From an uncultured Clostridia bacterium (lineage in GTDB: Bacteria > Bacillota > Clostridia > UMGS1883), in NCBI GenBank assembly GCA_947629005.1, contig CANRCD010000017.1:1-33051 (forward strand): a stretch of 33,051 bases of DNA, given 5' to 3'. The translations under genes were made by a program, and so were the position numbers. The stretch's first letter is position 1, and every line of letters begins with the position of its first letter. Positions 3,332 through 32,915 of this stretch are shown piece by piece. A model generated the notes under the pieces. It was not told the DNA's origin and ran no database searches. It saw only the letters and a list, made by a program, of their open reading frames with translations.

Positions 3332-3979
3332 ATGCAAGATATTCCTCATTTTTATACTCCTAACGGATTAAAAATTCGGTTGGATTTAGATTTTTTTACT
3401 GATAGAATTGCCCTGTTCCCGCATAAAATTCATGGTGACTGGTTTGCTAATTGGGCGTTAAAAACCGAGGCCAAATTTCTGTACCCGAACGTCTTAATGT
3501 ATTATACAACAATCGTACTTATGATACTTGCTGCTTTTAATAATGTTTCTTTGAGTTGTTTTACAATTATAAAGTCTCTTGCTTTGGCTTGTCTTGCGGG
3601 CACAATTATTAAATACATTACGCCGGAAGAGTTATATATACTCCTTGACAAAATTATGTGGTTTATATACTTTCCTTATTACATTATGTTAAATTCACCG
3701 ACAAGAGTCCTCGTTCTTTTTATAGTTTCTATTGTGACATCAATTTTTTCTGTGCCGCATAAGGCGAGTTTTGTAATTCTTGGAATTTATATTATCGGAT
3801 GTATTGTGTATTTTATAGCAGATAATATCATAAATAATTTCTATTCCACGGTGAAATCAAAAAAATATAATATGTTTTTTAATGACACGGAAATTATAGC
3901 TTTTCAAACATGGTGGCTGTTGTATGGGAACGATGAAACCATTCAAAATTTAATAAATGATTATGTAAATAGTCACTAA
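3332..3979 (+). CDS. Polytopic membrane protein in the lysogeny operon
   Basis: A 215-residue protein with a good AGGAGG site before the ATG. A polar N-terminus of about 55 residues is followed by at least four hydrophobic segments (around 55-70, 75-92, 105-122, 125-142 and 145-165) and a polar C-terminal tail of about 45 residues containing FNDTEIIAFQTWWLLYGND. No transporter, peptidase or channel motif is seen and I do not recognise the family. It lies between the repressor operon and the integrase on the same strand. Its stop codon overlaps the A-run that forms the U-tract of the leftward small RNA terminator. Expression with the repressor suggests an exclusion or host-modifying function, but this is not proven by sequence. 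Confidence 0.62.
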   Translation: MQDIPHFYTPNGLKIRLDLDFFTDRIALFPHKIHGDWFANWALKTEAKFLYPNVLMYYTTIVLMILAAFNNVSLSCFTIIKSLALACLAGTIIKYITPEELYILLDKIMWFIYFPYYIMLNSPTRVLVLFIVSIVTSIFSVPHKASFVILGIYIIGCIVYFIADNIINNFYSTVKSKKYNMFFNDTEIIAFQTWWLLYGNDETIQNLINDYVNSH

Positions 3980-4048
3980 AAAAACGGCCCCGGTGCTGGA
4001 ACACCGAGGCCGCGAGATGGAGTGTATCGTGATACAGACCACCTACAC
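3979..4048 (-). ncRNA. Integrase-divergent small RNA, copy 1
   Basis: A ~70-nt RNA is predicted from the promoter at 4055-4084 to the U-tract at 3978-3984. In order it holds a short 5' part, a hairpin made from the palindrome at 4023-4036, a short linker with ACUCCAUCUC, and a strong terminator hairpin (stem of 11 bp with one mismatch, 3985-4012) followed by seven U. No start codon with a ribosome binding site is seen, so it is taken as non-coding. Its segment ACACUCC is the exact complement of GGAGTGT (4099-4105) in the integrase ribosome binding region, and pairing can be extended to about 10 bp with G-U pairs. The same RNA with 4-5 changes is encoded at 30093-30163 beside the second integrase. 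Confidence 0.68.
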
Positions 4049-4069
4049 AAGGAGATTGTATCACATACA
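4023..4069. promoter_or_regulatory. Paired palindromic operators in the integrase leader
   Basis: Two inverted repeats: TGTATCGTGATACA (4023-4036) and TGTATCACATACA (4057-4069). They share the half-site TGTAT(C). Both are conserved at 30106-30119 and 30072-30084. The first lies in the early transcribed part of the small RNA, where it can also fold as a hairpin; the second covers the small RNA -10 box. The half-sites equal those of the 20-bp palindrome in front of the XRE-TPR gene (26111-26130). Confidence 0.55.
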
Positions 4070-4084
4070 CCCCCGGATTGTCAA
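4055..4084 (-). promoter_or_regulatory. Small RNA promoter, copy 1
   Basis: Read leftward: TTGACA (4079-4084), 18-base spacer, TACAAT (4055-4060). Copy 2 has the same boxes with a 17-base spacer because of one missing G. The -10 box is overlapped by the palindrome TGTATCACATACA at 4057-4069, so a protein bound there would block the promoter. Confidence 0.72.
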
Positions 4085-4111
4085 ATAAAATTTTTAAGGG
4101 AGTGTGTTTTT

Positions 4112-5137
4112 ATGCCAAAATCCAAGCCGCTCAAACGCCCCAACGGTTCCGGGACGATAATCGACTACGGCCCGCGCTCACATCTGCGTTACGGCGGGCG
4201 CGTGACCGCCGGAATTGTGGATGGCAAGCAAAAATATATGTATCTTCCACGGTTTAAGACTTTAACCGAGGCACGGCGTAATCTCGACCTCTACGCCGCA
4301 GGTGATTATCGACCTCCTTCCGAGCTAACCTTTGCTCAAGTTTTTGCCGAATGGAAGGCCATACACTATCCCCGTATATCTAAGCAGCTGCAAGATAACT
4401 ATAATGCGGCGTATAAACACCTCGCGCCAATACATAATAAAAAATTCGTCGAACTCCGTACGGCGAATTTCCAAATCCATATTGACGCCCTTCCGCTCGG
4501 CCAGTCCAGCAAAAGCAAAATCAAAGCGGTTTTAGGCATGGTATATAAATATGCTATGATGAACGATATTGTCAACAAGAATTATGCCTCGTTCATTCGC
4601 ATTGACAAACAGAAAAAGACCGAAAAGACCGTGTTTTCTGCGGAAGAAGTCAAAAAGCTCAAAGCTGCTACTCCAAAAAGCGATATGGTGCTGATACTGA
4701 TATATACCGGCTTTAGACTTCAAGAACTGCTTAATCTGACGATAGACGACATAGATTTTAACCTTGGCGTTATTCGTGGAGGTCTTAAAACCGATGCCGG
4801 ACGAAACAGAATCGTTCCTATTCACCCATATATCCGCCCCATGCTCGAAGAGTTCTGCCGGGATAAAACCGATGAAATTTTCCTAAACCCCAGCGGGAAC
4901 GTTATCACTCAAGACTATTTTCGTAAAAAAATCTATTATCCTCTACTGGACGAGCTTGGTATTCCGCGGCGCACGCCTCACAGCACACGCCATACGTTTG
5001 CCACTATGCTTGTCGAAAGCGGAGCCGACCAAAAGGCCGTGACTGACCTTCTCGGCCACAGCGACTATGCCTTCACGGCAAACACCTATACGCATACTGA
5101 TATTCCTTTCCTCAAAAAGGCTGTTTCCCTGCTTTAG
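4112..5137 (+). CDS. int: Tyrosine recombinase (integrase) of the left element
   Basis: A 341-residue phage-type integrase that would catalyse site-specific insertion and excision of the element. The order is a basic N-terminal arm-binding region (MPKSKPLKRPNGSG..., about 1-60), a SAM-like core-binding domain (about 68-150) and a C-terminal catalytic domain with Arg202 (GFRLQEL), His290-x-x-Arg293-His294 (HSTRH), His316 (LLGHSD) and the nucleophile Tyr326 (NTYTHTD). All catalytic residues are present. The ATG at 4112 is chosen because AAGGGAG precedes it and because the second integrase starts at the same place of the shared leader. The 3' end faces the 3' end of tRNA-Pro(GGG) at a distance of 125 bases, which marks that tRNA as the attachment site. 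Confidence 0.93.
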   Translation: MPKSKPLKRPNGSGTIIDYGPRSHLRYGGRVTAGIVDGKQKYMYLPRFKTLTEARRNLDLYAAGDYRPPSELTFAQVFAEWKAIHYPRISKQLQDNYNAAYKHLAPIHNKKFVELRTANFQIHIDALPLGQSSKSKIKAVLGMVYKYAMMNDIVNKNYASFIRIDKQKKTEKTVFSAEEVKKLKAATPKSDMVLILIYTGFRLQELLNLTIDDIDFNLGVIRGGLKTDAGRNRIVPIHPYIRPMLEEFCRDKTDEIFLNPSGNVITQDYFRKKIYYPLLDELGIPRRTPHSTRHTFATMLVESGADQKAVTDLLGHSDYAFTANTYTHTDIPFLKKAVSLL

Positions 5138-5225: not shown

Positions 5226-5260
5226 AAAAACGGCTTGAAGCCTTGGCTTCAAGCCGTTTT
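5226..5260 (-). terminator. Terminator of tRNA-Pro, possibly bidirectional
   Basis: A 12-bp perfect stem (CGGCTTGAAGCC at 5231-5242 with GGCTTCAAGCCG at 5245-5256) flanked by AAAAA on the left and TTTT on the right. Read leftward it ends the tRNA-Pro transcript; read rightward it can end the integrase transcript. Confidence 0.85.
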
Positions 5261-5262
5261 CG

Positions 5263-5339
5263 TGGTCTGAGTGGGGAGACTTGAACTCCCGGCCTCTTGA
5301 ACCCCATTCAAGCACGCTACCAAACTGCGCCACACCCAG
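5263..5339 (-). tRNA. tRNA-Pro (anticodon GGG)
   Basis: A full cloverleaf on the minus strand: acceptor CTGGGTG (5339 downward) pairs with CACTCAG with one G-U pair, followed by discriminator A and an encoded CCA (5265-5263). The D arm contains GCGCAGTTTGGTAGCGC; the anticodon arm is CTTGA-ATGGGGT-TCAAG, so the anticodon is GGG (Pro, codon CCC); the T arm is GGGAG-TTCAAGT-CTCCC. Its 3' end is the probable attachment core of the left element, restored by the element's own sequence on insertion. Confidence 0.95.
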
Positions 5340-7202: not shown

Positions 7203-10200
7203 ATGAAAAAATTATTCTCGCTTGTTCTTGCCGCCGCGATGACGCTGGCGCTTGCGCCGTCTTTGCCTGCGGCGGCGGCTTCCGTGCCGACGCTCACGGT
7301 TGACATGACCGAAAAAACGGGCCCCATGCGCCACGGCAGCGCGGGCTTCCTATACGGTCTCGGCAGCCACGGTACGCCGAACGCCAACACTCTTACGCCG
7401 CTAAAGCCCGATACGGCCGTGCAAAAAGCGCCCGATGGCCTTCAGCACCCCACCGGCGACGTGCTTGATGTGGCCGAGACCTTCATCGAGGCCGGCGGCG
7501 AGCAGGTGCAGATTTATCTTCAGGATATTTTCGCCCTGTGGAGCTACGAGTATACCGACATTGACGATTATCTGGAAAGAATAAAGGAAATGGTGCCGAA
7601 AATCGTTGCCCTGCGCGACAGCCACCCCGATTTTTCCGGCAAGTTCGTGTACGTTCCGTATAACGAGCCCGACGGCATTTGGTTCGGCGGAATAAACGAC
7701 AGAGCTGATGTTCAGGACAAATTCAATGACTACTGGCAGAAGGCCTATACGCTGATAAAGGAGCTCGACCCCGACGCGCTTATCGGCGGGGCAAGCTATT
7801 CCGTGTATCAGCCGAATGCTATGGAAAGCTGGATACGCTTCTGTGCCGAGAACGGCTGCGAACCCGACTACATAACTTGGCACGAGCTTCAGACCGATAA
7901 GCTTTCGAGCTTCAAGTCGCATCTCGACCACTACCGTGGCCTTGAGAGCAAGTACGGCATGGAGCAGCGGGAAATAATCATAAACGAGTATGCCCCGCAG
8001 AACCACTGCTCGGTTCCCGGCAAGCTGGTGAACTGGATAGCCCTCTTTGAGGAAAACAAGGTCAGCGGCTGCCTGCCCTACTGGCACAACGCCGGCAACC
8101 TCAACGACATTGCCGCCGACAACAACGAGCCCAACGGCGCGTGGTGGCTGTATAAGTGGTACGGCGATATGAGCGGAGAAACCCTCAGCCTGACTACCTC
8201 CACCGCGAGGGATAAGCTCTACGGCCTCGCCTCGATAGACGACAACAAAAAGAGCGCGAACGTGATTTTCGGCGGCGTTGACGGCGCGGCGGACATCGTG
8301 CTTGAAAACATAGCCAAAACCGAGGCCTTTAACGGGGCTTCGGCGGTCAACGTAAAAATAGAGGCCACCTATTGGACGGCCTTCCACGGCGTTGCGGCGG
8401 AGCCCGCTGTTATACGCAGCGGCGTTTACGCCGTGGAGAACGGGGCCGTAACCGTGGAGCTGGACGGCATGGAGGCTTCGGCGGCCTATAACATAACCGT
8501 GACCGCTGCCGCTGAAGGCAGTAAGCCCGGCGTAGTTTACCGCGGCCCCTGGCGCAAAACATGGGAGGCCGAGGATGCGACCCTCGTGGGGGGCGCGTGG
8601 AAAAACAACGGCGACAACAACAGATACGCCTACTCCGGCGGCTACCGCGTCAGCGGAATTGACAGCGCTGACGCCGGCGTGGACTTCGCCGTTGACGTGC
8701 CCATAAGCGGCTTCTACAGGGCCGACATGATCTATGGCAACGGCCTTGGCCTGGATACCGCTCACCCCGCCGACAATAACCCCGTAACCGTTACCCAAAG
8801 CCGCTCCATTGACGGCGAGGAGCAAATCCTCACCCTTGAAAACACCCTCCGTTGGACCATGGCCGGCATGTACACGGACTACATCGAGCTTGAGGAGGGC
8901 GCGCATACCTTCTCCTACCGCGGCACGGGCGGGCAGGGCGCGTCCATCGACTGCCTGAGCCTGACATACGCGGGCGGCGAGATACCCGCCTTTGACAGCG
9001 TGTACGAGGCCGAGCTCGCCGACTTCAACACCCTGCTCGATAACGCCGAGACCGCCGTTAAAACCGAAAGCGAGATATCCGGCCACAGCGGCTCGGGCTA
9101 CGTGACCGGCCTCGACAATGTAAGCGTGAAAAATGGCGGCGGCGTGCGCTTTACGGTTGTCGTGCCCGATAACGGCCTTTACGACCTGACGCTCCGCTAC
9201 GCAGGAAACGGCGCGGCGGCGAATATATACCTTGACAACACCGCTCTCACGCTCGATAATTTCCTCACGGAAGTGGAGCTTCCCGCCTCGGCGGCATTTG
9301 CCTCCGCGGGTACGGCGGTGTTCCTTCAGAAGGGAATCAATATAATCGACATAGATACCTCCGGCCCAGCCGCGCTGGATTATCTGCGCGTGCGAAGGGC
9401 CGAGGGAGCGGAGGACGAAATTGTAACCGTCGAGGCGGAGAGCGGCTCCGTTACCGGCGGCGAGACGGCCGCGAACGCTTATGCCGGCGGCGGGAGCTAT
9501 GTGCCCGGGCTTGAGGCCGCGCACGGTTATGAAAATATCGAAAATGATTTCACCGTAACGGGCCTCAACGACACGCTTCTCAGTTACGAAAGCGCTGCCG
9601 ACGCCGAGCTTATCTACGCGGACTATGACGAAAAAGGCCGTCTTGCGGCGGTGAAGCGCGTGTCTCTGCCTGCGGGAGAGGCCGTTAAGGAGCTTGAATC
9701 AGGCCACGATGAGATGTATATCTGGTACTCGGTCAAAAATCTGCGTCCCGCGGCGGAAATACTCGCGGACGCGGAGGGCGGCAGCCTTGAAATACCGGTG
9801 ACCGTGCCCGAGGCCGGCGATTATAAAATGGTCATACGTTACTCAAACAGCGAGCTTTTTGGCGCGCACAACTACAACGCTCAGATAGTTGACCGCTACG
9901 CAAGCTACAGCGTGAACGGCGGCGAGGGCGAGCGCGTGTACTTCAAAAATACCTTCAGCGACGACAACTGGCGCACCGTGGCTGTTCCCGTGCGGCTTGA
10001 GGCTGGGGAGAACACCGTAAAATTCTATAATGACAACTGGCGGTTGGTGCGCTGCGGCGTACTTAAGCAGGGCGAGAGCGAGCATATCCCCGAAAACATA
10101 GACTATCAGACCCTCGCGAACCTCACGCCCAATTTTGACAGCTTCTCCTTTGCTCCGGCGGTCGCGGAAGCGTCCTCCGCCGCCGAAAGATACAAGATAA

Positions 10201-28893: not shown

Positions 28894-28969
28894 GCCGATG
28901 TAGCTCAGTTGGTAGAGCAGCTCATTCGTAATGAGCAGGTCGCAGGTTCGAGTCCCGTCATCGGCTCCA
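28894..28969 (+). tRNA. tRNA-Thr (anticodon CGT)
   Basis: A full 76-nt cloverleaf with encoded CCA: acceptor GCCGATG pairs with CATCGGC, discriminator T, anticodon arm GCTCA-TTCGTAA-TGAGC giving anticodon CGT (Thr, codon ACG), T arm with GGTTCGAGTCC. Its 3' end is 38 bases from the stop codon of the second integrase and is the likely attachment core of the right element. Confidence 0.95.
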
Positions 28970-29006: not shown

Positions 29007-30029
29007 TCATATTTCGTGGCATATGCTGTTAAAATAGTCGTCAATTTTTTTATCAGTTTCCAGCCGCTCCCGCGTGAATGTATGCTGATAAATTCCTTTT
29101 AGTACGCCGGTACTGCTCCAACCGCCGCGCTCCATTGCGTACTTGTCGGGGACACCAAGGCGCAACATAATCGAGGCGTTGAGGTGGCGCAGATCATGAA
29201 ATCGAATATGGGGCAAGCAGGCGTTTTGCAGGGCTTTTTGGAAGCGCTTATATATTTGTGGGTGAGTCAAGGTTATTATAAAATCATCAGGGGCCTCGTG
29301 GGGCTGGGCGTTAATGAGGTTCATTATATACGCAGGCACGGAAAGCCGACGGGCACTGTTATATGTTTTTGTGGAGTTTTTGATGATGTCCCCGTTTTCT
29401 GCCTTTACCTTCACGGTGTGAACGGTGAGGATATTCCCGGTAATGTCGCTGTATCGAAGCCCCCGTATTTCCGACATTCGCAAACTTAACCACATTGCGA
29501 GCAGCACCGGCAGTTCGCATTCGGTTCCGACTACAGCCTTAAAAATATCCTCGGGTGGCGGAAGCTCCTTAAATTTCTTCTGCTGCTTGGGAAGCGTGAC
29601 ATTGAGCCGCTTGGACGGCTCGGCGTAATAAATGACGGCGGTGATAAAGCCGTATATATTTCTGACGGTTTTCGGCGACAGACTCTGGCTTTTTTCGTTT
29701 ATAAACGCTTGGACGGTTTTTGAATCAATCGCGTCAACGCTTTTTTCCTGCCATGTATCAAAATAGCTTCTAAGTATCTGTTTATATGACATAATGGTCG
29801 TAGGCGAAAGTACATTGCTTTTGCTGTTAATATAGTCGTTTGCCGCATTAATAAACAAACGGCTATTCAGAGCGCAACGATGTTCGTCGGCGTAAGCCGC
29901 CGCTTCGCGCTCAACAGAACGCTTATCCGCCCCGGTGAAGCTCTTATATTTCGGTTTGCCGCTTTCGTCTTTTCCTATATATGCGCGGACGCGCCATGAC
30001 CCGCTGGGTAATCGTTTGGCTGTAGGCAT
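29007..30029 (-). CDS. int: Tyrosine recombinase (integrase) of the right element
   Basis: A 340-residue phage-type integrase. The start is ATG at 30029, behind AAGGGAG; a GTG three codons upstream is too close to that site. N-terminal AP2-like arm-binding part (about 1-55; WRVRAYIGKDESGKPKYKSF), core-binding domain (about 60-150) and catalytic domain with Arg184 (LSLRMSE), His278-x-x-Arg281-His282 (HDLRH), Trp304 in the place of the third His (GGWSS) and nucleophile Tyr314 (IYQHTF). It shares little sequence with the integrase at 4112-5137 outside the catalytic motifs, although their leaders are nearly identical. The 3' end faces the 3' end of tRNA-Thr(CGT). Confidence 0.93.
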   Translation of the reverse strand: MPTAKRLPSGSWRVRAYIGKDESGKPKYKSFTGADKRSVEREAAAYADEHRCALNSRLFINAANDYINSKSNVLSPTTIMSYKQILRSYFDTWQEKSVDAIDSKTVQAFINEKSQSLSPKTVRNIYGFITAVIYYAEPSKRLNVTLPKQQKKFKELPPPEDIFKAVVGTECELPVLLAMWLSLRMSEIRGLRYSDITGNILTVHTVKVKAENGDIIKNSTKTYNSARRLSVPAYIMNLINAQPHEAPDDFIITLTHPQIYKRFQKALQNACLPHIRFHDLRHLNASIMLRLGVPDKYAMERGGWSSTGVLKGIYQHTFTRERLETDKKIDDYFNSICHEI

Positions 30030-30057
30030 AAAAAACACACTCCCTTAAAAATTTTAT

Positions 30058-30086
30058 TTGACAATCGGGGGTGTATGTGATACAAT
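30058..30086 (+). promoter_or_regulatory. Small RNA promoter, copy 2
   Basis: TTGACA (30058-30063), 17-base spacer, TACAAT (30081-30086). The palindrome TGTATGTGATACA (30072-30084) overlaps the -10 box, and TGTATCACGATACA (30106-30119) follows in the transcribed part. Confidence 0.75.
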
Positions 30087-30092
30087 TTCCTT

Positions 30093-30163
30093 GTGTAGGT
30101 GGTGTTGTATCACGATACACTCCATCTCGCGGCCTCGGTGTTGGCGCACCGGGGCCGTTTTTT
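30093..30163 (+). ncRNA. Integrase-divergent small RNA, copy 2
   Basis: The same ~70-nt RNA as at 3979-4048: 5' part, hairpin from the palindrome at 30106-30119, linker with ACACUCC (30117-30123), and a terminator hairpin with U-tract at 30158-30163. The terminator loop differs (GGCG against CCAG), while the stem is unchanged. ACACUCC is complementary to the GGAGUGU of the integrase ribosome binding region (30037-30043 read leftward). The terminator overlaps the stop codon of the convergent 66-aa gene (30162-30164), as the first copy overlaps the stop of its own neighbour. Confidence 0.68.
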
Positions 30164-30362
30164 ATTTGAATAAATCGAAAAGGCTCTTTGATGTCTTGTT
30201 ATAAATTTTGTTGTACGCCGCCTTTTGCGGGTTTTTTATACAGCCGGCGCCCTTCTTTCCATACCCGGGAAGAAGTGATTTTTTCGCTGCTCGTTTCACT
30301 TTCCCTGTAGTGCGTGCCTTCAGAGATTTTTTCAACGATGGGGTGCGGATACCAAATTTCAT
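30162..30362 (-). CDS. Small basic protein of the right element
   Basis: A 66-residue, strongly basic protein (about one residue in four is Lys or Arg) with repeated KKS/KSL words and the stretch YGKKGAGCIKNPQKAAYNKI. A ribosome binding site GGGAGTG stands before the ATG, which lies 4 bases behind the stop of the SAP-domain gene, so it is the last gene of that operon. It has no membrane segment. I have an impression of similar short proteins in clostridial prophages, but no function is known to me; nucleic acid binding is possible from the charge only. Confidence 0.68.
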   Translation of the reverse strand: MKFGIRTPSLKKSLKARTTGKVKRAAKKSLLPGYGKKGAGCIKNPQKAAYNKIYNKTSKSLFDLFK

Positions 30363-31320: not shown

Positions 31321-32670
31321 CTACTTCATTTCCATGCGCATTTTCTCTGACGTTCTATACTGTTCTGCTTCGGCAACATCTACAAATTCAACTGTTTTAT
31401 CGAAATTTGCCTTTACAACCTCTTTGATTTCATCGAGTGTAACACGGAAAAATTCTCTGCGTTGATTAACCATATTTAATTTGCGGCCCTCGAAAGCTCT
31501 ATGTAACGCCGCTTCGAGCCTTGGCGCGTCGTCTGAGAATATCATGGCATGAATATCAAAATTAAAGGGAACGGAAGCGTCGCCCAACTCGTCCACACGT
31601 TCTGTAGGGTCAAGTCTTCGGGTCATGCCTATCTTATACACGTTTTCGCCAAAGGCTCCAATATTGGATATGATATAAACATATCCGGCCTTGGCGTTTG
31701 CGGCTCGGTAATCAACGTCCTTCTGCGCCTTTTCTATTTCCCCAAGTTGATTTTCAATTTCCTTCTGTTTTGCAAGAAGCTCCTTCTTTGTTTCATCGTC
31801 AGCGATTTCAAGCTGTTTGGTTATTGCACTCAAGGCTTTTTCATAATGGGTCTGCTCTTTGTCAAGTTTTTTGCGCGCCTCTTCAATTTCTTTTTGCAGC
31901 TTAGCTTCCTCTCTCATTTGAGCCCGAAGAGCCTTTTGCGCTTCCTTTTCTTCTTCCTTTTTCAGCTTATATTCGAAAGAAAGCGCAAGTTCGTCCAGTT
32001 TTAATCTTTTATAATCTTCTGATATTGATAAATTCATTATCGCTCCAAGTTTTGATATGGCCTGACAGGACTTTTCTATTCTCTGGACATAAGAGTCATA
32101 AGTGTTATATTTCACTTTGTCCACGCACTCATCACATTCGGAGTTGAAGGCTCTCAACACGAGCTTTTGAATGTCTTTAATCATTTTGCTGCCTTGAGAG
32201 GCGCTGCCATTAACAGTCCAGCTTGTTGCACCAATTATGGCCGTTCCGGTTTTTATCATTGCCTTCTGCTGCTCCCTAATGAGGGACAGCCTAGCCTTGT
32301 AAGCGTCAGATGAAACAAAGTCAAATTTAGGTTCATATAGGCCAAATTCCTGCAAAAGCACTTTTTCGTCTGTTTCAACAAGCTGACTTTTCAAAACAGA
32401 TATTTTTTGAAGGAGGCCGCTCTCCTTGTCGCGAAGTTCTAATAGTTTTTGTTCTTCTTTTGCCTTTTGAACGTTGTAATCGGACTGCATACAATCCAAC
32501 TGAGATTGCAAATCTTTTATTTTGTCCTGAAGAGAAATAACCTCGCGCATATCAGGCGTCATGAGTTTTTCCATTTCTGATACCTTGGTTTCTAATTCGC
32601 TTATATAATTCGTCTTTTGCTTAACGGTTGACGACAATTCATCTATCTGCTTTGCTTTTTTAAAAAACAT
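31321..32670 (-). CDS. DUF4041 coiled-coil protein with GIY-YIG (T5orf172) domain
   Basis: A 449-residue protein. Residues about 5-100 and 225-320 are long charged coiled coils (e.g. KLQKEIEEARKKLDKEQTHY). Between them, about 110-225, lies the DUF4041 region (QEFGLYEPKFDFVSSDAYKA, LVLRAFNSECDECVDKVKY). Residues about 330-420 are a T5orf172/MUG113-type GIY-YIG nuclease-like domain (AGYVYIISNIGAFGENVYKI, GMTRRLDPTERVDELGDASV, LHRAFEGRKLNMVNQRREFF) with the conserved Tyr-Tyr, Arg and Glu-like residues. Such proteins are found in phages and mobile elements and may nick DNA, although activity is not well established. AAAGGAAAG precedes the ATG. Likely a defence or accessory gene of the right element. 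Confidence 0.85.
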   Translation of the reverse strand: MFFKKAKQIDELSSTVKQKTNYISELETKVSEMEKLMTPDMREVISLQDKIKDLQSQLDCMQSDYNVQKAKEEQKLLELRDKESGLLQKISVLKSQLVETDEKVLLQEFGLYEPKFDFVSSDAYKARLSLIREQQKAMIKTGTAIIGATSWTVNGSASQGSKMIKDIQKLVLRAFNSECDECVDKVKYNTYDSYVQRIEKSCQAISKLGAIMNLSISEDYKRLKLDELALSFEYKLKKEEEKEAQKALRAQMREEAKLQKEIEEARKKLDKEQTHYEKALSAITKQLEIADDETKKELLAKQKEIENQLGEIEKAQKDVDYRAANAKAGYVYIISNIGAFGENVYKIGMTRRLDPTERVDELGDASVPFNFDIHAMIFSDDAPRLEAALHRAFEGRKLNMVNQRREFFRVTLDEIKEVVKANFDKTVEFVDVAEAEQYRTSEKMRMEMK

Positions 32671-32696: not shown

Positions 32697-32915
32697 TTAT
32701 ACAAAATATACCTTTGGCTTAAACAGTAAAACAATGCAATCAATTAACCACCCTATCCCCAATAGCCCCAACGTAAATAAATAAAGGAGTCCCATTCCGA
32801 TTTTTTCTTCATAAAACTTATGAATGCCGAAATGTCCAAAAAACAGACATAGGAAAAAAGAAACCCATTTGTTTTTAGGCTTTCCGGCGTTGACATTTAT
32901 CACGAGATTGTTCAT
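32697..32915 (-). CDS. TM2-domain membrane protein
   Basis: A 72-residue protein. Residues about 15-65 are a TM2 domain: first helix WVSFFLCLFFGHFGIHKFY with the conserved GxFGxHxFY turn, then GMGLLYLFTLGLLGIGWLID and a third short hydrophobic part ending in KPKVYFV. The short polar N-terminus is MNNLVINVNAGKPKNK. GGGAGGG precedes the ATG. It stands 26 bases before the DUF4041 gene on the same strand, so they probably share a transcript, and a membrane-plus-nuclease pairing is possible. Confidence 0.85.
   Translation of the reverse strand: MNNLVINVNAGKPKNKWVSFFLCLFFGHFGIHKFYEEKIGMGLLYLFTLGLLGIGWLIDCIVLLFKPKVYFV

Follow-up and report, generated by a model that had tools for sequence, protein, structure and literature searches.

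Why should a gap of some 133 bp between two genes be conserved so much more closely than the genes that it separates? The question arises from a stretch of 33,051 nucleotides of an uncultured Clostridia bacterium (contig CANRCD010000017.1 of assembly GCA_947629005.1; hereafter the window), where the block at 3979–4111 (+), immediately ahead of an integrase gene, recurs in inverted orientation at 30030–30163 ahead of a second one. A first-pass annotation of the window had noted the inverted repeat with its roughly eight differences, and had proposed either a recombination hot spot or a regulatory device under selection that accompanies integrases. Computational analysis of the block and its homologues revealed a promoter and a terminator on one strand, two mutually exclusive and covarying pairings and a U-run on the other, a recurrent genomic association, and the swapping of the module between genes. 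Instead of a plain leader, the block constitutes a specific device that combines an antisense RNA gene with an attenuator. We assign a probability of roughly 0.77 to the reading in which it acts as a cis-encoded, antisense-RNA-controlled attenuator that keeps the integrase off.

One Leader, Two Divergent Integrases

The two copies, 133 bp (module A) and 134 bp (module B) in length, are 95% identical, and their alignment counts five substitutions and three single-base indels, eight differences in all. They are the sole DNA-level matches across the 2.04 Mb genome (E = 1e-53). Module A extends from the stop codon of a gene encoding a 215-aa protein (3332–3979, +) to the ATG of int1 (4112–5137, +), and module B from the stop codon of a gene encoding a 66-aa protein (30162–30362, −) to the ATG of int2 (29007–30029, −), each neighbor being codirectional with its integrase. 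The likeness ends at the neighbor stop codon on one side and in the first integrase codons on the other. Int1 and Int2 are both tyrosine recombinases (PF00589), with 21% protein identity and DNA identity at background level, and the two neighbors are unrelated, which bears out the annotation's view that the flanking genes share little and disposes of nearly identical integrases as an explanation of the repeat. A leader peptide within the block was ruled out by the single-base indels between the copies.

Both integrases adjoin tRNA genes, int1 that of tRNA-Pro(GGG) (5263–5339, −) and int2 that of tRNA-Thr(CGU) (28894–28969, +). The 3′ end of each tRNA is found once more on another contig with no tRNA gene there, as a 58-bp duplicate of window positions 5253–5310 on contig C23 and a 25-bp duplicate of 28945–28969 on contig C21. 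The tRNA adjacency and the att duplicates point to two integrative elements, each with an attachment site of its own. In element 1, an S24-peptidase/HTH (CI-like) repressor gene (2290–2934, +) lies upstream of int1 in the same direction, and element 2 carries genes for DUF4041/T5orf172 and TM2-domain proteins near its integrase end (31321–32670 and 32697–32915).

A Predicted Antisense RNA Gene Within the Leader

On the strand opposite the integrase, both copies carry a sigma-70 promoter matching the consensus at 11 of 12 positions (TTGACA-N17/18-TACAAT, the −10 hexamer being preceded by TG) and a strong terminator, whose 13-pair stem is followed by a T-run. In module A the promoter, with an 18-nt spacer, occupies 4055–4084 (−) and the terminator 3984–4013 (−), and the predicted antisense RNA of about 70 nt, its start placed some 7 nt after the −10 hexamer, spans 3979–4048 (−). 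The corresponding features of module B are a promoter with a 17-nt spacer (30058–30086, +), a terminator (30129–30158, +), and a predicted RNA at 30093–30163 (+). The promoter thus sits between the integrase RBS and the RNA, whose end coincides with the neighbor stop codon. The RNAs fold far better than their shuffled counterparts, with z-scores of −6.6 (A) and −5.0 (B) and an overall range of −4.4 to −6.6. Promoter and terminator are kept on this strand across homologues, and the terminator pairs covary, with C–G to U–G changes that preserve pairing solely on the antisense strand. At the level of sequence, therefore, a countertranscribed RNA gene with its own promoter and terminator is contained within the leader of the gene that it would regulate.

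The terminator loops of the modules are mostly of the UUGG/CCAA type (TTGGTAG, TTGGCG, CGCCAA), found in 34 of 40 modules as against 24 of 107 terminator-like hairpins elsewhere, a crude comparison set. The UUGG loop fits the YUNR U-turn motif, which antisense systems use for kissing. Separately, an orphan module-like copy of the antisense RNA lies 3′ of an integrase gene (L114:869–1000), without a gene of its own.

Two Competing Pairings in the Integrase Leader

Three segments of the integrase strand are of particular interest. O1′ (GGAGTGTATCGTGATACA; 4019–4036, +), the putative pre-emptor or anti-terminator arm of the int1 mRNA, lies within the antisense target. O2′ (TGTATCACATACACCCCC; 4057–4074, +) is the complement of the −10 region and spacer of the antisense promoter. 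The SD arm (GGGAGTGTG), together with a U5 run ending at the ATG (4098–4111, +), forms the 3′ half of a predicted attenuator hairpin. Their equivalents in the int2 leader are O1′ at 30106–30123 (−), O2′ at 30067–30084 (−), and the SD arm with a U6 run at 30030–30044 (−). O1′ and the SD arm are each GGAGTG-like and O2′ is complementary to both, which makes it a candidate switch strand whose partner is either one or the other.

The pairings were assessed by comparing the duplex energies of each locus's own segments with those of segments swapped between loci, over 65 non-redundant loci from which near-identical leaders had been removed and with 20,000 permutations that ignore shared ancestry. 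The O1′:O2′ energies were −20.3 (own) versus −10.9 (swapped) kcal/mol, and those of O2′:SD −12.3 versus −9.2 kcal/mol; in neither case did any of the 20,000 permutations reach the observed difference. The covariation holds in the 18 recombinase loci found without recourse to the RBS (−19.0 versus −9.2 for O1′:O2′; −10.3 versus −7.0 for O2′:SD), and wrong-strand and reversed controls were not significant. Mismatches in O2′:SD, read on the mRNA strand, comprise 59 G·U versus 10 A·C, an excess that is partly compositional because the G·U share of the wrong-strand control is also high (0.88 own, 0.81 swapped); those in O1′:O2′ show no strand preference (27 G·U versus 27 A·C). By prediction and covariation, then, the leader has two mutually exclusive structures, and the 5′ arm of the pre-emptor falls in the antisense target.

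A reading at the level of DNA would take O1 and O2 as operators through which a repressor controls divergent promoters, the RNA being incidental. The two are inverted repeats that flank the RNA start, O2 overlaps the −10 region, and CI-like repressors are encoded nearby. Yet O1 and O2 are often non-dyad and vary freely while remaining complementary, O2′ covaries with the SD as well, which an operator would not need, and no plausible integrase promoter turned up when the interval from O2 to the SD was scanned; we consider this reading very improbable. Alternatively, the small RNA might bind the integrase SD directly through its CACUC(C) sequence, in cis or in trans, with no switch in the mRNA. 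In the window copies the O1 of the RNA does contain ACACUCC, complementary to the SD, and over the full set the own pairing of small RNA and SD is better than the swapped one (−10.3 versus −9.2). This shift, however, is one third of that seen for O2′:SD, fell short of significance when tested on the first 36 loci (997/10,000), and leaves both O2′ and the O1′/O2′ covariation unexplained, so that direct anti-SD action appears improbable beside the antisense-controlled attenuator.

The attenuator reading predicts that covering O1′ should drive the SD into a hairpin. When the antisense-covered part was deleted from 72 folded leaders, the probability that the SD is paired rose from 0.59 to 0.86 (46 up, 3 down), the free fold already pairing most of the SD in a number of leaders; in the window copies it rose modestly, from 0.61 to 0.75 and from 0.57 to 0.75. 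Just ahead of the start codon, 51 of 73 modules have a T5 run, compared with 11 of 263 other SD-led genes; among the 18 modules retrieved without the RBS, 7 have one (p = 3e-5). Across the modules, then, the predicted attenuator hairpin leads into a U-run close to the start codon, a feature that is weak in the window copies, where the O2′:SD stem has one C·A mismatch and encloses a long loop of ~23 nt. These two defects leave the strength of the window terminators uncertain, and with so weak a hairpin SD sequestration may dominate there.

Such considerations bring up a sub-variant of the same explanation, a purely translational switch in which the O2′:SD hairpin masks the SD without terminating transcription. 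It has a precedent in plasmid pSK41 (PMC5703833), the SD lies inside the hairpin at most loci, and the window stem is short, mismatched, and long-looped. Against it stand the strong excess of U-runs straight after the stem and several individual leaders. In L091, L097, and L113, the 3′ part of O2′ forms a GC-rich hairpin with a T-run apart from the SD, and a terminator scanner called the L091 hairpin, built from O2′, a GC-rich intrinsic terminator; it likewise called a terminator, here a textbook one, in the SD-containing hairpin of L126. A switch acting on translation alone is accordingly possible but doubtful.

Distribution and Adjacent Genes

Two covariance models were used, R1 representing the block and R2 omitting the RBS and the start codon. 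Among 391 genomes of the class, R1 matched 28 and R2 matched 47; in a sample of 398 genomes from the phylum, R1 added only two. In all 34 first-set cases tested, the gene that begins where the block ends encodes a recombinase (25 tyrosine, 9 serine). The 31 new neighboring genes contributed by the RBS-free R2 include, by Pfam, 19 recombinases (13 tyrosine-type, three of them truncated, and 6 serine), 6 AAA_25 RepA-like ATPases, 2 phage Gp157 proteins, and 1 AAA_23 protein, so that both sets together place 53 recombinase genes beside the block. The blocks of L032 and L043 precede truncated or frameshifted integrases. Additional modules came from pattern scans of named genomes and IMG/VR; they lie in genomes of Clostridia, Oscillospiraceae, and Lachnospiraceae and on prophage contigs, among them a prophage of Lachnospiraceae MD329. 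The expectation that the block would recur across clostridial genomes beside varied integrases therefore stands, with 28 to 47 of 391 genomes, and the repeat is no recent duplication confined to one genome; the restriction to tyrosine recombinases does not stand, since serine recombinases and AAA_25 ATPases also follow the block.

The upstream side is similarly recurrent. Of 33 first-set blocks, 24 have a codirectional neighbor whose end lies no more than 25 nt away, and in element 1 and in genome G001 this neighbor lies after a CI-like repressor gene.

Several matches were rejected as false positives: the R1 match L042, which has a CopG-like neighbor; the pattern matches L123, L129, L132, and L138, which lack a terminator or recombinase; L076, L081, and most R2 matches above E ~1e-4 without a gene; and a third R2 match in the genome of the window (G000:C15, E = 5e-4), which looks coding and is spurious. 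A blastn search of the blocks against phage and plasmid records returned nothing apart from a 42-bp promoter-like match that lies near a primase gene in Enterocloster phages.

The arrangement is also seen ahead of other genes. The antisense/attenuator layout precedes AAA_25 RepA-like ATPase genes in L086, L089, L090, L094, L098, and L103 and at L171:7774–8790, and at least one AAA_25 case lies inside an integrative mobilizable element that also encodes an integrase, NikA/MobC, and a relaxase. R2 matches also precede phage Gp157 genes and an SbcC-like AAA_23 ATPase gene (L085, L102, L101), and the near-perfect O1/O2 inverted repeat of L101 suggests that other phage genes may use the module. The Rfam RNAs DUF3800-VII and DUF3800-I occur near a recombinase module at L126:5400–5490 and 7616–7737.

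Exchange of the Module Between Recombinases

Within the genus of this bacterium, leader and integrase identities are discordant: 95% versus 21% for copies A and B, 93% versus 23% for the leaders of genomes G004 and G007, and, in the reverse sense, 65% versus 75% for A and G004. The leaders of B and of a serine recombinase in G001 are 86% identical, and the proteins are without similarity. In the same genus, the block precedes an int2 orthologue in G006 and a large serine recombinase in G001. These discordances indicate that integrase modules have traded leaders, with recombination inside the block as the probable route, and leaders and integrases that reassort in this manner make the block a portable module.

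In G006, a RhuM-family gene separates a full block from a copy of its terminator half (L006:12431–13729, contig C8); the half copy adjoins a homologue of the 66-aa gene, as if cargo had been inserted by recombination within the block.

Might the block then be no more than a boundary for homologous recombination, at which integrases and att sites are exchanged and gene conversion keeps the copies alike? The discordant identities and the split block of G006 would suit such a hot spot. Divergent copies at low identity nevertheless retain the promoter, the terminator, and the covarying pairings, which argues for selection on the RNA logic and which a hot spot leaves unexplained. Recombination is compatible with the data as a consequence, and as the whole account we find it hardly credible. 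Of the two proposals of the first-pass annotation, it is the selected device traveling with integrases that prevails, given the many genomes, the varied recombinases, and the discordant identities.

Proposed Mechanism

In the antisense-controlled attenuator as we envisage it, the strong sigma-70 promoter beside the integrase RBS would produce the ~70-nt antisense RNA, ending at its own terminator near the neighbor stop codon, and the integrase mRNA would start upstream and include the complement of this RNA. We infer synthesis of both RNAs, an upstream start of the mRNA, and the direction of regulation described here; the codirectional neighbor is the likely source of the integrase mRNA. With the antisense RNA unbound, O1′ and O2′ would pair as the pre-emptor, leaving the SD arm free and the integrase transcribed and translated. 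Binding of the antisense RNA to O1′ would free O2′ to pair with the SD arm, and the resulting hairpin, with the U-run directly before the AUG, would stop transcription, hide the SD, or both, turning the integrase off. The module is swapped between unrelated recombinases of integrative elements.

Comparison With Known Systems

The closest parallel is the RNAI/repC attenuator of pT181 in staphylococcal Rep_trans plasmids, where a countertranscript of ~87 nt acts on a pre-emptor and induces a stem-loop with the RBS before the start codon, which acts as a terminator (PMC5703833). Shared with the module are a countertranscribed RNA of ~70–90 nt complementary to the leader and the competition between a pre-emptor and an RBS-containing, intrinsic-terminator-like stem-loop (IV) just before the start codon (PMC5703833). 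It is this point-for-point match that led us to conclude in favor of an antisense-RNA-controlled attenuator. The likeness is one of layout, with no claim of sequence homology, and the module differs in serving gut Clostridia and in targeting a tyrosine or serine recombinase of chromosomally integrated elements instead of a replication initiator.

In pIP501 and pAMβ1, the antisense RNAIII induces premature termination of the leader, and the two RNAs are transcribed convergently (PMC4981023). Convergent transcription would be common to the module, for which antisense-induced leader termination is proposed; RNAIII, in contrast, is 136 nt long compared with ~70, and pIP501 targets repR and has a companion repressor, CopR. 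The RNAI of pSK41, from the RepA_N plasmids, induces an RBS-sequestering hairpin (PMC5703833), as the module may do. Its target is different, and the U-run that follows the module hairpin suggests termination as well. Among DNA-recombination enzymes, the transposase of Tn10/IS10 is limited by an antisense RNA, RNA-OUT, which blocks ribosome binding directly on the transposase mRNA and, unlike the module, involves no attenuator.

The Rfam RNA-OUT model gave no above-threshold match to the module, and no Rfam family reached its gathering score over the block. A survey of the human microbiome gives 28 candidate motifs in the vicinity of integrase, sortase, or phage domains and offers no mechanism for them (PMC8040213). 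Candidate structured RNAs such as HMP2_7457 resemble the module, as described, in occurring in Firmicutes near integrase domains, and are reported as uncharacterized (PMC8040213). Our literature search found no paper describing an antisense/attenuator module before integrases, and the family seems to be undescribed. With 53 adjacent recombinases and 6 AAA_25 RepA-like ATPases, the module works like plasmid copy control without being a member of it.

Implications

For most ICEs, IMEs, and prophages it is still an open question by what means the integrase is silenced and yet kept ready. The module suggests one answer, an RNA switch that senses dose in the manner of plasmid copy control, that is portable across unrelated recombinases, and that occurs in about 7–12% of the sampled species of the class, in gut Clostridia. 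Because co-resident elements that differ in integrase and att site carry near-identical modules, it is conceivable, if rather unlikely, that the antisense RNA of one element silences the integrase of another in trans. Were this true, integrative elements would fall into RNA-based incompatibility groups, as plasmids do, and whether elements excise or exclude one another would depend on whether their leaders are shared or have diverged. The finding provides a searchable RNA family absent from Rfam and a possible route for the mutual recognition of co-resident elements.
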